From NCBI GenBank assembly GCA_001600635.1, contig BCKL01000003.1, positions 1,628,235-1,692,234 of the forward strand: 64,000 nt of DNA. The letters run 5' to 3'. Of the stretch, positions 14,855-23,499 are shown piece by piece. The notes under the pieces are model-generated. The model did not search any database, was not told the origin of the DNA, and worked only from the letters and a program-made list of their open reading frames with translations. The stretch is from Leucosporidium creatinivorum. Taxonomy: Eukaryota > Basidiomycota > Microbotryomycetes > Leucosporidiales > Leucosporidiaceae. The translations under genes were made by a program, and so were the position numbers. The first letter of the stretch is position 1, and the number at the start of each line of letters is the position of its first letter.

Positions 14855-15704
14855 TCATGGCCTTCCCCCTCCGCTGTGGATGTCCGAGAGTCAGCTCGGA
14901 GCCGAGGGCGCGAGAATAGGAAGGGAGACAGCAAGCGTACATCTGCTCGACGACGTAATCGAGTTGCTCCTCCTGTAGGGTGCGAGTAAGGGGTCAGTCA
15001 GGCGTAGTCTGCGGACCGCGAGACAGAGGAGAGCCTGGACAAACCTCCTCCATTTCCATCTGCTCGGCGGGGAAAGCAAGGCGCGCAAGGAGAGTCAGAT
15101 GGTCAGCATGGGGGCGAGCGCATCACGAGGAAGGAAGCGAGCGCACCATTTTTGGAGCTGCAAGAGAGGCAGGCATGATCAGCTAGAGTACGGAGCATCC
15201 TCCTCGTCCTCGCTCCGAACGACTCGACCCAAGACTCACTATGCGCCGGGTCGAGCCTCTCTCCATCGTACAGCAGCTTGAACGAGGAGCCAGCGATTCC
15301 CTTTTGCTTAGCTACGGCCTGTTGGGAAGAGGAAAGGTCAGCCCTTGTACAGTAGCAGCTCCTGCAGCCCGCAAGACGCGTCGCGCGTGCCCCCGAGAGC
15401 TGCTGAGACGGAGACGTAGAGGGTGGTGAGCAGCAGCGCACAGTGTAGATCTTGCTGAAAGGGGTTGTAATCTTGCACTTGATTTGGATGTCTGCCGAGG
15501 GGCGAGAGTGCGTAAGAGGTTGGTCGAGGCGGAAACGAGCAGCCAGAAGGAGGTGAGATAGGTACCTTCCTCGGGTCCCTGGTGCTTGATGATCAGGTTG
15601 ATCTTGTAGTGGTACAGAGGAGAGGGTCAGCTAGAGCGTAGGAAGTTGCAAGTGACGCAGAGGAGCTGACCTTCTTCCCAGCGGACTCGACTTCAGCGGA
15701 CATG
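14855..15704 (-). CDS. SMT3: SUMO (SMT3) ubiquitin-like modifier
   Basis: Small ubiquitin-like modifier of 91 residues, conjugated to lysines after the tail behind Gly-Gly is removed. Eight exons: 15672-15704, 15566-15602, 15442-15491, 15240-15318, 15147-15157, 15045-15059, 14941-14972 and 14855-14873. They total 276 nt and close perfectly in frame. The product has the SUMO beta-grasp pattern (INLIIKHQGPEE, TTPFSKIYTAVAKQKG, FKLLYDGERLDPAHTPKM) and ends EQLDYVVEQIGG, then the short tail GRP that a Ulp-type protease would cut. Two exons are only 11 and 15 nt. The gene is oriented away from the membrane-protein gene at 16092, with about 390 bp between the starts. Very firm identification. Confidence 0.93.
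15045..15059 (-). other. 15-nt micro-exon of SMT3
   Basis: Encodes five residues (MEMEE) between a CAG acceptor and a GTTTGT donor. Needed to keep the SUMO frame and length. Confidence 0.8.
15147..15157 (-). other. 11-nt micro-exon of SMT3
   Basis: Completes the Thr codon and adds Pro-Lys-Met of the conserved HTPKM motif. Flanked by TTGCAG and GTGCGC. Confidence 0.85.
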
Positions 15705-16091
15705 GCTTTGGAGGGGCCTTGGAAGAGCTGTAGGAGTGTAGAAAGGTGTGCGCTGTTTGCTGTAGTGGACCAGGTGGGTCACGAACAGGTGAGAGAGCGA
15801 GAAGCGAGCGAGTGGTGCAAGTGAGAGAGCCGGCCAGCAGGCGCGTCCAAGGGCCAAGTTGAGAGCTACAAAGAGGGGTCTCGTGTCGAGATGAAGAGCT
15901 ACAGAGCAGTTGCAAGTAGATTAGAAGCTTAATTGCACTCTGCTAGTGCTTCAGACAGTCTTACAGAGGCTTTCAGGCTTCACTTGAGTTCATTTGAGAA
16001 TTCGAGGTCTTCACGCGCGAATTGGTCGTTTCACCTCTCTCCCTCTTGCCTCTCACTCGTCGTCTCAGCTTCGACTCTACTACAGCGTACG
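15705..16091. promoter_or_regulatory. Divergent promoter region SMT3 / 16092 gene
   Basis: 387 bp between two divergent start codons, AT-richer than the genes (for example near 15915-15935). No specific binding site could be named. Confidence 0.4.
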
Positions 16092-20265: not shown

Positions 20266-23200
20266 ATGTAAGTGGGCAGTCTTACAGTTTGAACGAACAG
20301 CCTACAACACTCGCCCCTACCCTACACGACTACAGCTCGCTAATTCCAACTTGCAACCGCACTTTTTCGCTCCCTCTCTCACTCTCCCTTTCGCTCTCGC
20401 TCTCGCTCTCGTTCAACAGGTCCGGAGAGCTCACCCACAGGCTTATCGAGAACGGATGGTTCAAGGAGGTTAGCGAGCAGTGGCCTGGTCAGTAATCTCC
20501 TACAGCCCCCTTCTCTGTAGCCCCCTTCGAAAGCCTCCAAGGGCGCCTCCATCTCGACCTCCGCTCCCTGGGCCTTTGTATGAACTCCCTCTCTGACCCC
20601 TAGGGGATGGTACTGCAGGTCAGGTAAATTGGACTCCTCTGCTCTGCTCTGCTCGTTCTCGTGCTCCTCGTGAGTTTACTCCCCTCTCGCTTCATCTCCG
20701 CCGAAATCAACCGCTAACGCCCGCTCTCTTTCTCAACAGATGCTAACCTCTACTACACCACATGAAGGCCATGACGCTGCGCGTCGAGAAGATCCTCCAC
20801 ATGGAGCAGTCGCTCTACCAGGACGTCCTCGTCTTCAAGTCCACCAACCACGGCAACGTCCTCGTCCTCGACGGTGCGATCCAGTGCGTGGAGCACGACG
20901 AGTTCTCGTGAGTCTTTGGCTTTCTCCTCGATGCGATTCCGAGCCTTCTAGCTAGTTGCTGGATGGCTGGACATTGCTACTCGAATGAGAGGGCCTGAGC
21001 TGACTCTTAACCTTCGCCGAACAGCTACCGTGCGCCGAACTCGCTCTTCCTAGCCGCTAGTGAAGCCCCAGCTGACCTCTATGCATCACAACAGAGGAGA
21101 TGATTGCCCACTTGCCCCTCGCTTCCCACCCCAACCCCGTCTCGGTTCTCGTTATCGGAGGAGGAGATGGAGGAGTCCTCCGCGAGGTCCTCAAGCACCC
21201 CTCCGTCAAGAACGCCGTCCTCTGCGACATTGACGAGGCCGTGCCCCGCGTCTCCAAGCAGTTCCTTCCCCACATGGCTGCCGGCTTCGACGACCCTCGC
21301 GTGACGGTCCACATTGGCGACGGCTTCAAGTTCCTCGACGACAAGAAGAAGGAGTTCGACGTCATCATCACCGACTCGTCCGACCCCGTCGGACCCGCCA
21401 ACTCGCTGTTCGAGAAGCCCTACTTCCAGCTCCTCAAGGAGTCGCTCAAGGACGGCGGATCCATCTCGACCCAGGGAGAGTGCATCTGGCTCCACCTGCC
21501 CCTCATCAACGACCTGATGACCATGACTCGCGGTCTCTTCCCTGTCGCCGAGTTTGCCTACACTTCGATCCCTACCTACCCCTCGGGCACGATTGGCTTT
21601 GTCGTCTGCACCCTCGACGAGAAGCGCGACCTCCGCACCCCCCTCCGCGACGTCAAGAACGTTCGCTACTGGAACAAGGCCGTCCACAAGCAGGCCTTCA
21701 CCCTCCCCACTTTCGCCCAAAAGGTCGTCGATGCCGCTGGACGCGACGCTGTCGCCGCTCCCAAGGACGCCGCCGCCAAGAAGGTCCTCCTCCTCGGCTC
21801 AGGCTTCGTCGCCCAGCCCGCCGCCGAGTACATCCTCCGCCGCGCTGAGAACAGCCTCACCGTCGCCTGCCGCAACGTCGAGACCGCTCAGGCTCTCGCC
21901 GACCAGCTCTCGGGCAACGCCTCGGCCATGTCGGTCGATGTCAACGACGAGGCCTCCCTCGACGCTGCTGTCAAGGAGCACGACCTCATCATCTCCCTCA
22001 TTCCTTACACCTTCCACGCCAACGTCATCAAGTCGGCCATCAAGTTCAAGAAGAACGTCGTCACCACTTCTTACGTCTCGGACGCCATGAAGGCTCTTGA
22101 GCCCGCTGCTATCGAGGCCGGCATCACCGTCCTCAACGAGGTCGGACTTGACCCCGGAGTGAGTTGTGAATTTCCCTCCTCTCGTGGATCTTACGCTGAC
22201 CGTTCTCCTACTACAGCTCGACCACCTTTACGCCGTCAAGAAGATCACCGAGGTTCACGCCGCCGGAGGAAAGGTGAGCTCTTCTCGTTGATCCGACTCG
22301 ACTCTAGAAAGCATATTCACCATCTCTCTCTCCACCCCAGATCAACGGCTTCATCTCGTACTGCGGAGGTCTCCCCGCCCCCGAGTCGGCCGACAACCCC
22401 CTCGGCTACAAGTTCTCGTGGTCCTCGCGCGGTGTCCTGCTCGCCCTCGGCAACTCTGCCCGCCTCTACAAGGAGGGCAAGCTCGTCGAGATCAACGGAT
22501 CGGAGCTCATGGCACACGCTCAGCCCTACTTCATCAACCCCGCCTTTGCCTTCGTCGCCTACCCCAACCGCGACTCGACTTCGTTCCGCGAGAAGTACGA
22601 GATCCCCGAGGCCGAGACTGTTGTTCGTGGTACCCTCCGCTACCAGGGATTCCCCGCCTTCATCAAGACCCTCGTCGACATTGGATTCCTCAACGAGACT
22701 CCCGTCGAGTCGCTTAAGGCTGGCTCCAAGGGCCTCCCCTGGGTGAGTGATAGCTAGAGCAAGGGGAGATTCCTGCCACTGACTTTCTTCTCTACTACAG
22801 AACGAGGTCACCGCCAAGGCCATCGGCGCCGCTGATGCCACCGAGGCGTGAGTTTGCTCTCTCTCCCCAGCGCTTGAGCTCGCAACTGACCTTGTTCTCC
22901 CCAACAGCTCTCTCGTCGCCAAGGTCAAGGAGATCGCCAAGTTCTCCTCCCCCGCCGAGGAGGAGCGCCTTCTCTCCGGCCTCCGCTGGATCGGTCTCTT
23001 CTCCTCCGAGACCGTCACCCCCCGCGGCAACCTCCTCGACACCCTCTGCGCCACCCTCGAGGCGAAGATGCAGTACGAGCAGGGCGAGCGCGACATGGTT
23101 ATGCTCCAGCACAAGTTTGAGGTGGAGAACAAGGATGGCTCTAAGGTGGGTTCCAAGCGCTCTGAGAGGAACTCTTGCTGACCCTCGTCGCTTCCTTCGC

Positions 23201-23499
23201 TGCTCGCAGGAGACCCACACTTCGACTCTCCTCGACTACGGAGCGCCCGTCGGATCCGGCGCTGGACCTTCCTCGATGGCCAAGCTTGTCGGAGTCCCCT
23301 GCGGAGTCTCGGTTCAGCTCATCCTCGACGGCGTCATCACCAAGAAGGGGTGGGTTCTCTCGCTGTCTCTTGACCTACAGAACGATAGCTGACCATACTG
23401 TGCTGCAGTATCCTCGCCCCCTACTCGATGGACATTGTTCAGCCCATCATGGACGCCTGCAAGGCCGAGGGCATCGAGCTCGTCGAGAAGGTCCTGTAA
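20266..23499 (+). CDS. SPE3-LYS9: Chimeric spermidine synthase / saccharopine dehydrogenase (SPE3-LYS9)
   Basis: Bifunctional polypeptide of 752 residues. The N-terminal part is spermidine synthase (putrescine plus decarboxylated SAM to spermidine); the C-terminal part is saccharopine dehydrogenase of the alpha-aminoadipate lysine pathway. The fusion is known from basidiomycetes such as Cryptococcus. Motifs: [26 protein letters not shown], then from about residue 300 the Rossmann start [29 protein letters not shown] and [10 protein letters not shown]. Twelve exons total 2,259 nt (753 codons): 20266-20267, 20420-20487, 20619-20623, 20768-20907, 21025-21029, 21095-22158, 22217-22273, 22341-22742, 22801-22847, 22908-23145, 23210-23349 and 23409-23499. 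The start codon is split by intron 1, and exons 3 and 5 are 5 nt each. Coding GC is high with strong C-ending codons, which suggests high expression. Confidence 0.95.
20619..20623 (+). other. 5-nt micro-exon of SPE3-LYS9
   Basis: GTCAG between a CTGCAG acceptor and a GTAAAT donor. It yields the conserved junction WPGQAMTL. An alternative 20-nt exon starting at 20604 would also keep frame but would add five residues (DGTAG) not expected in the family. Confidence 0.7.
21025..21029 (+). other. 5-nt micro-exon of SPE3-LYS9
   Basis: CTACC between AACAG and GTGCGC. It supplies the Tyr and part of the Gln codon in the conserved spermidine synthase motif EFSYQEMIAH. Without it the frame is lost. Confidence 0.85.

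Follow-up and report, generated by a model that had tools for sequence, protein, structure and literature searches.

Two probable 5-nucleotide exons in a spermidine synthase/saccharopine reductase fusion gene of Leucosporidium creatinivorum

We analysed a 64,000-nt stretch of the Leucosporidium creatinivorum genome (contig BCKL01000003.1, positions 1,628,235 to 1,692,234; hereafter the window) that carries a fusion of spermidine synthase and saccharopine reductase on its plus strand. Scripted splicing from 20266 to 23499 joined 12 exons into 2259 nt, or 753 codons with the stop. A preliminary description made from the letters alone had proposed this exon count, length and fusion, and matches to solved enzymes bore the fusion out. 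In a PDB search, residues 3–286 matched solved spermidine synthase and residues 300–751 saccharopine reductase, which places an N-terminal spermidine synthase in frame with a C-terminal saccharopine reductase, as in SPE3-LYS9 fusions. The N-terminus GELTH pairs with SELTH of the Kluyveromyces lactis spermidine synthase in the alignment, and the spermidine synthase family had one match across the 27.7 Mb genome. The features of the gene are given below, where "gene finder" denotes a homology-free finder trained from two seeds and described further on.

20266..20267, plus strand: coding part of exon 1, the AT of a start codon split AT/G by intron 1 (spliced model; gene finder, both seeds)
20420..20487, plus strand: exon 2, 68 nt, ending TGGCCTG (W-P-G) before gtcagt (one finder version agrees, others stop at 20468)
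20488..20618, plus strand: intron 2, 131 nt, with donor GTCAGT, branch-site-like CTCTGACC (A at 20596) and acceptor tgcag
20604..20618, plus strand: 15-nt segment between rival acceptors TAG (ends 20603) and CAG (ends 20618), reading D-G-T-A-G in frame if exonic
20619..20623, plus strand: exon 3, probable 5-nt microexon GTCAG, completing Gly and encoding Gln of WPGQ, flanked by tgcag and gtaaat
20624..20767, plus strand: intron 3, 144 nt, with two branch-site/acceptor modules
ending at 20739, plus strand: module 1 of intron 3, CGCTAACG and aacag, out of frame
ending at 20767, plus strand: module 2 of intron 3, TGCTAACC and gaag, productive
20768..20907, plus strand: exon 4, 140 nt, starting GCCATG and ending GAGTTCTC (TTCTC, then gtgagt; spliced model; gene finder, both seeds)
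20908..21024, plus strand: intron 4, 117 nt, with donor GTGAGT and branch site AGCTGACT 21 nt from aacag
21025..21029, plus strand: exon 5, 5-nt microexon CTACC, completing Ser, encoding Tyr and starting Gln of FSYQEM, flanked by aacag and gtgcgc
21030..21094, plus strand: intron 5, 65 nt, with donor GTGCGC and branch site AGCTGACC 19 nt from aacag
21095..22158, plus strand: exon 6, 1064 nt, starting AGGAGATG after aacag; remaining spermidine synthase, linker and beginning of the saccharopine reductase half
22217-22273, 22341-22742, 22801-22847, 22908-23145, 23210-23349 and 23409-23499, plus strand: exons 7–12, LYS9-type half with stop TAA (spliced model, PDB match, gene finder)

The 5' end of the gene is finely divided in other respects as well. 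The start codon (20266-20420) is split AT/G by a 152-nt intron, and a first coding exon of at most 2 nt was seen in the fusion gene and in one other among the 65 predicted genes scoring at least 40. Intron 3 contains an ATG (20762-20764) in frame with exon 4 (a ten-residue reading). A caller starting there could swap the first 25 residues for MK, and the Pfam tetramerisation score drops to 57.3 bits for the protein so started.

We took a microexon to be an internal coding exon of at most 30 nt, with an ultra-short class of at most 15 nt. Exons 3 and 5, at 5 nt each, read AG-GTCAG-GT and AG-CTACC-GT, so that both pieces named in the preliminary description are there in sequence with AG/GT flanks, GTCAG as a probable exon only. 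Both are needed for conserved protein sequence and for the frame. Omitting either one shifts the frame and brings a stop at codon 118, and omitting both brings a stop at codon 73. The restored motifs, WPGQAMTL and EFSYQEMIAH, align gap-free with the K. lactis spermidine synthase. We then enumerated, within set bounds, all one- or two-intron splicings with GT-AG, GC-AG or AT-AC boundaries and introns of at least 35 nt. DEFSYQEMIAH was restored by one of 5768 splicings and the first motif, as a 12-residue string, by two of 8302. The earlier claim that only these exons restore the motifs therefore stands for the second, whereas for the first there is one further solution, a 1-nt exon (20542) with a GC donor. 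We rejected that solution, whose acceptor and branch site lie at the 1st percentile of a set of 315 trusted introns; all 315 trusted donors are GT and none GC. When intron interiors were shuffled by dinucleotide, leaving 8 nt at the start and 40 nt at the end in place (3000 shuffles each), a motif-restoring exon of at most 30 nt arose in 3/3000 cases for the first motif and 2/3000 for the second.

The trusted introns used for such percentiles have flanking exons of at least 60 nt, leave out the fusion gene, and are predictions rather than transcripts. They show the two microexons to be unequally equipped. For CTACC, acceptor and branch site together stand at the 70.2 percentile, and the downstream donor is below average at the 23.5 percentile. 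For GTCAG the corresponding values are 11.7 and 36.5, and the context of its acceptor CAG 20618 taken alone is weak (1.3 percentile). The expectation of a good acceptor and donor on each exon is thus borne out in part, the GTCAG acceptor being weak. An in-frame exon of at most 30 nt scoring as high as CTACC appeared in 1/3000 intron shuffles; an in-frame short exon scoring as high as GTCAG appeared in 231/3000.

We next asked what a gene finder blind to homology would call. The finder was small and purpose-written, imposed no minimum exon length, and was seeded with the coding sequence of the fusion gene and its introns 6–11 (seed 1). It was retrained for 16 rounds on its own predicted genes from the window and 200 kb of contig C1, with the fusion gene left out, and a second training was seeded from PRP8 alone to exclude the seed as cause. 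The design is simple, and the finder was trained on genes that it had itself predicted. Both the seed-1 finder and the PRP8-seeded one recovered the split start codon, the later exons and CTACC, CTACC thus being called without homology input from two seeds. Its splice sites appear usable by the host on these calls and on the branch sites lying 21 and 19 nt from the acceptors. Removing the CTACC donor cost the finder about 10 log units and made it drop a conserved stretch. GTCAG, in contrast, was chosen by no finder version, whether seed-1, PRP8-seeded or in site-removal runs. Ab initio evidence backs CTACC strongly and does not back GTCAG. The prediction that automatic callers would miss the two exons accordingly came true for GTCAG in every version and failed for CTACC once no minimum exon length was set. 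The predicted consequence, a truncated enzyme, did not follow: with the microexon donors removed, the finder changed or lost short peptides instead. Together with the shuffles and the motif, these results lead us to regard CTACC as almost certainly a genuine 5-nt exon.

For exon 3 the finder offered other solutions. One seed-1 version picked 20604-20623, a 20-nt exon using acceptor TAG 20603. Another seed-1 version, the PRP8-seeded version and the runs after removal of TAG 20603 picked the pair 20420-20468 and 20521-20577, which we rejected as it destroys the WPGQ motif. The PRP8-seeded run left our probabilities for GTCAG and CTACC unchanged, because the same choice had already come with TAG removed. 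The 20-nt exon would keep CTACC as a microexon and set DGTAG within WPGQ. It is open and in frame (WPG-DGTAG-QAMTL), one finder version favours it, and its TAG has the better pyrimidine context (16.8 against 1.3 percentile for CAG). Once the branch site is included the two acceptors tie, at 6.70 for CAG and 7.03 for TAG.

Protein comparison and branch-site spacing point the other way. DGTAG faces a gap in the K. lactis and human enzymes in four of the five displayed alignments; the fifth, with Caenorhabditis elegans, begins within the insert, and its match to the 5-nt version pairs 81 residues with 81. The Pfam tetramerisation domain scored 71.6 bits with GTCAG and 65.2 with the 20-nt exon. 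N-terminal PDB searches with the two versions shared 23 chain sequences, of which 22 gave the 5-nt version the higher score, the first 14 by 8.1–10.6 bits. The one exception differed by 0.1 bit and aligned downstream only, and several of the remaining matches begin 3' of the insert and so carry little information on exon 3. The sole strong branch-site match in reach, CTCTGACC with its A at 20596, lies at a distance of 7 nt to TAG and 22 nt to CAG. A strong branch site is present in 213 of the trusted introns. In these, one AG lying 3–10 nt past the site serves as acceptor and 25 are passed over, and 64 of the AGs used lie at 20–24 nt; a case listing gave an AG skipped in 36 of 207 introns. This skip rule is not built in, since the model behind the trusted introns has no branch-site term. 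On this evidence we hold GTCAG to be probably a genuine 5-nt exon and the 20-nt exon to be unlikely. The spliced sequence would contain TGGCCTGGTCAGGCCATG and TTCTCCTACCAGGAG under the model with two 5-nt exons and TGGCCTGGGGATGGTACTGCAGGTCAGGCCATG with the 20-nt exon.

The near-equal scores of the tandem acceptors could also mean that splicing employs both TAG 20603 and CAG 20618. The two isoforms would then be in frame and differ by 15 nt, and the out-of-frame acceptor at 20739 in intron 3 might be used as well. Acceptor 20739 scores at the 99.7 percentile and the productive acceptor 28 nt downstream at 10.8; splicing at 20739 would bring a stop after 128 residues. Chance, however, easily yields tandem AGs, and the insert of the longer isoform would hit a conserved motif. 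We consider dual use rather unlikely; it overlaps the preferred explanation, in which the mRNA normally carries GTCAG. A bolder form, in which the 5' part of the gene acts as a splicing switch through the nested TAG/CAG and the strong 20739 set against the weak 20767, seems to us very unlikely. If it did operate, the acceptors could set the level of full-length enzyme against an insert form or an early-stop form, and the two frame-critical 5-nt exons would make errors self-destructive.

GTCAG occurs twice exactly, at the start of intron 2 (20488-20492) and as exon 3 (20619-20623). Because of this, the same mRNA would result from one non-canonical intron, 20493-20767, with exonic GTCAG supplied by 20488-20492 and no separate exon 3. 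That reading draws on the exact duplication. Against it, canonical sites are available for two introns, and its donor would be TAATCT, for which we know of no fitting spliceosomal class; we regard it as extremely improbable. Donors starting GTCAG number 8 of the 315 trusted, which makes the repeat an event of about 2.5%. It may be chance, or may reflect an insertion with target-site duplication. An introner-like origin, by recent multiplication of an intron, was rejected: introns 2 and 4 matched only themselves in the organism's own genome (E up to 1, simple repeats skipped). The shared bases also mean that cDNA aligners could mask exon 3, so that long-read cDNA alone is not decisive.

Taking the two exons together, we put the probability at roughly 0.84 that the fusion gene has 12 exons and that GTCAG and CTACC, as constitutive 5-nt exons, are both normally present in its mRNA. 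The frame, the restored motifs, the splice- and branch-site scores and the skip rule were established on the sequence and on introns predicted in this genome; that both exons are included in the RNA, and constitutively, we infer. The introns flanking the microexons are 65–144 nt long, each with a donor, branch site and acceptor of its own and with predicted branch points near 20596, 20746, 21003 and 21075, and all four could each be recognised as a short unit by intron definition. The introns on either side of each microexon would probably leave one after another, because five bases are too few for acceptor-side and donor-side machinery together; the first ligation would make the 5-nt piece the end of a normal-sized exon. 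In intron 2, the branch A at 20596 may be too near TAG 20603 (7 nt), in which case the scan would continue to CAG 20618 and leave GTCAG. Intron definition with stepwise removal appears to be the simplest account. Stepwise removal has a precedent in the human MPC1 gene, since constructs whose microexon was 4 bp or 0 bp yielded lariats from each of the two flanking introns (PMC9929638). The 4-bp MPC1 microexon was still included at 2 and 1 bp, and resembles the present exons in a length not divisible by three and in constitutive use, which for the fusion gene is our proposal; it differs in that its proximal introns carry an exon-island element (PMC9929638). The introns of the fusion gene around the microexons are short.

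Tiny exons were also predicted elsewhere in the genome. PRP8 is a core spliceosome protein, and both models called a 5-nt exon, GCAAC (C1:339358-339362, L015:9358-9362), in its predicted gene, within KLW-Q-LNNYR and with a 59-nt intron on either side; the gene has 41 exons in one model and 40 in the PRP8-seeded model. Fourteen chain sequences of solved structures matched the 185-residue stretch around GCAAC, in 13 cases over its full length and in one from residue 2 onward, and the three displayed alignments were gap-free. A SUMO-like gene on the minus strand of the window (14855-15993) has two tiny predicted exons side by side in a conserved fold, 15147-15157 with 11 nt and 15045-15059 with 15 nt, and the stretch with the 11-nt exon is gap-free against SUMO structures.

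A wider census of 65 genes and 580 introns called 29 exons of 1–12 nt, CTACC included, 12 of them with a site score of at least 15. In the control, 39 genes without such calls were re-run six times with introns longer than 60 nt shuffled, and 15 exons of 1–12 nt, two with a score of at least 15, were called in 1482 shuffled introns. The census list does not equal the number of true microexons, since several calls in real sequence look false (for example, zero-length exons). A 4-nt call at C1:355251-355254, in a gene that we take by motif to be a PI 4-kinase, is apparently one of these. For a 12-nt exon called in a gene with a C2 domain the match was weak (best E 2.8e-6). In exon-by-exon searches of the genome, the squalene/phytoene synthase family had two loci and the lycopene cyclase family no match anywhere, which neither shows nor excludes a red yeast, the group named in the preliminary description.

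Exons this small are of an already known kind, found in other yeasts, plants and humans, and GTCAG and CTACC add to them. The nearest case by organism is the bglA beta-glycosidase gene, for which Table 3 of PMC9142197, set against cDNA, gives a minimum exon of 6 bp in Rhodotorula minuta and 5 bp in Sirobasidium magnum, with ten exons below 30 bp in the former. These are likewise basidiomycetous yeasts with many short introns and exons, although bglA is an unrelated gene, its exons were fixed by cDNA, and its shortest exon is perhaps not internal, a point on which the table is silent (PMC9142197). Among ascomycetes, a single-nucleotide exon in the Fusarium P450 gene CYP621A was, as here, deduced because an overlong apparent intron interrupted a conserved protein motif; it is 1 nt long and was confirmed by public RNA reads (PMC12940212). 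Trichoderma virens Xlr2 has a microexon absent from the gene model and required for a conserved domain, which at 20 nt and under glucose regulation differs from the 5-nt exons here; the same 2024 paper describes fungal microexons as poorly characterised (PMC11121469). Plant microexons of at most 15 nt, including the 1-nt exons of APC11 and VPS55, are described as mostly absent from reference annotations; they are similarly tiny and frame-critical, but were found from RNA-seq, with some confirmed by RT-PCR (PMC8831610).

The host gene is also of a known type. The basidiomycete SPE3-LYS9 or SpdsSr fusion of spermidine synthase and saccharopine reductase, about 750 residues long, has been described, and the present gene is the same fusion; the description of the Flammulina gene that we drew on gives six exons and mentions no microexon, against 12 exons here (PMC10051792). 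Our literature searches returned no report of the GTCAG or CTACC exons in the fusion gene, which is not proof of absence. As for relatives, none was confirmed among viral contigs, and a tblastn search of plasmids gave 26 records, none of which reached 60% identity; the five listed were bacterial.

Because the 5-nt exons lie within conserved motifs and their lengths are not multiples of three, a gene model lacking them would have a wrong N-terminal domain. A microexon that copies the start of the intron before it adds a further hazard, as read aligners can bury it in one apparent non-canonical intron. Both 5-nt exons would thus sit, easily mis-annotated, within a core metabolic enzyme of polyamine and lysine synthesis. 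PRP8 and SUMO carry similar predicted exons in the small portion of the genome that was read, so annotation of such fungi may drop or corrupt conserved residues in further genes as well.
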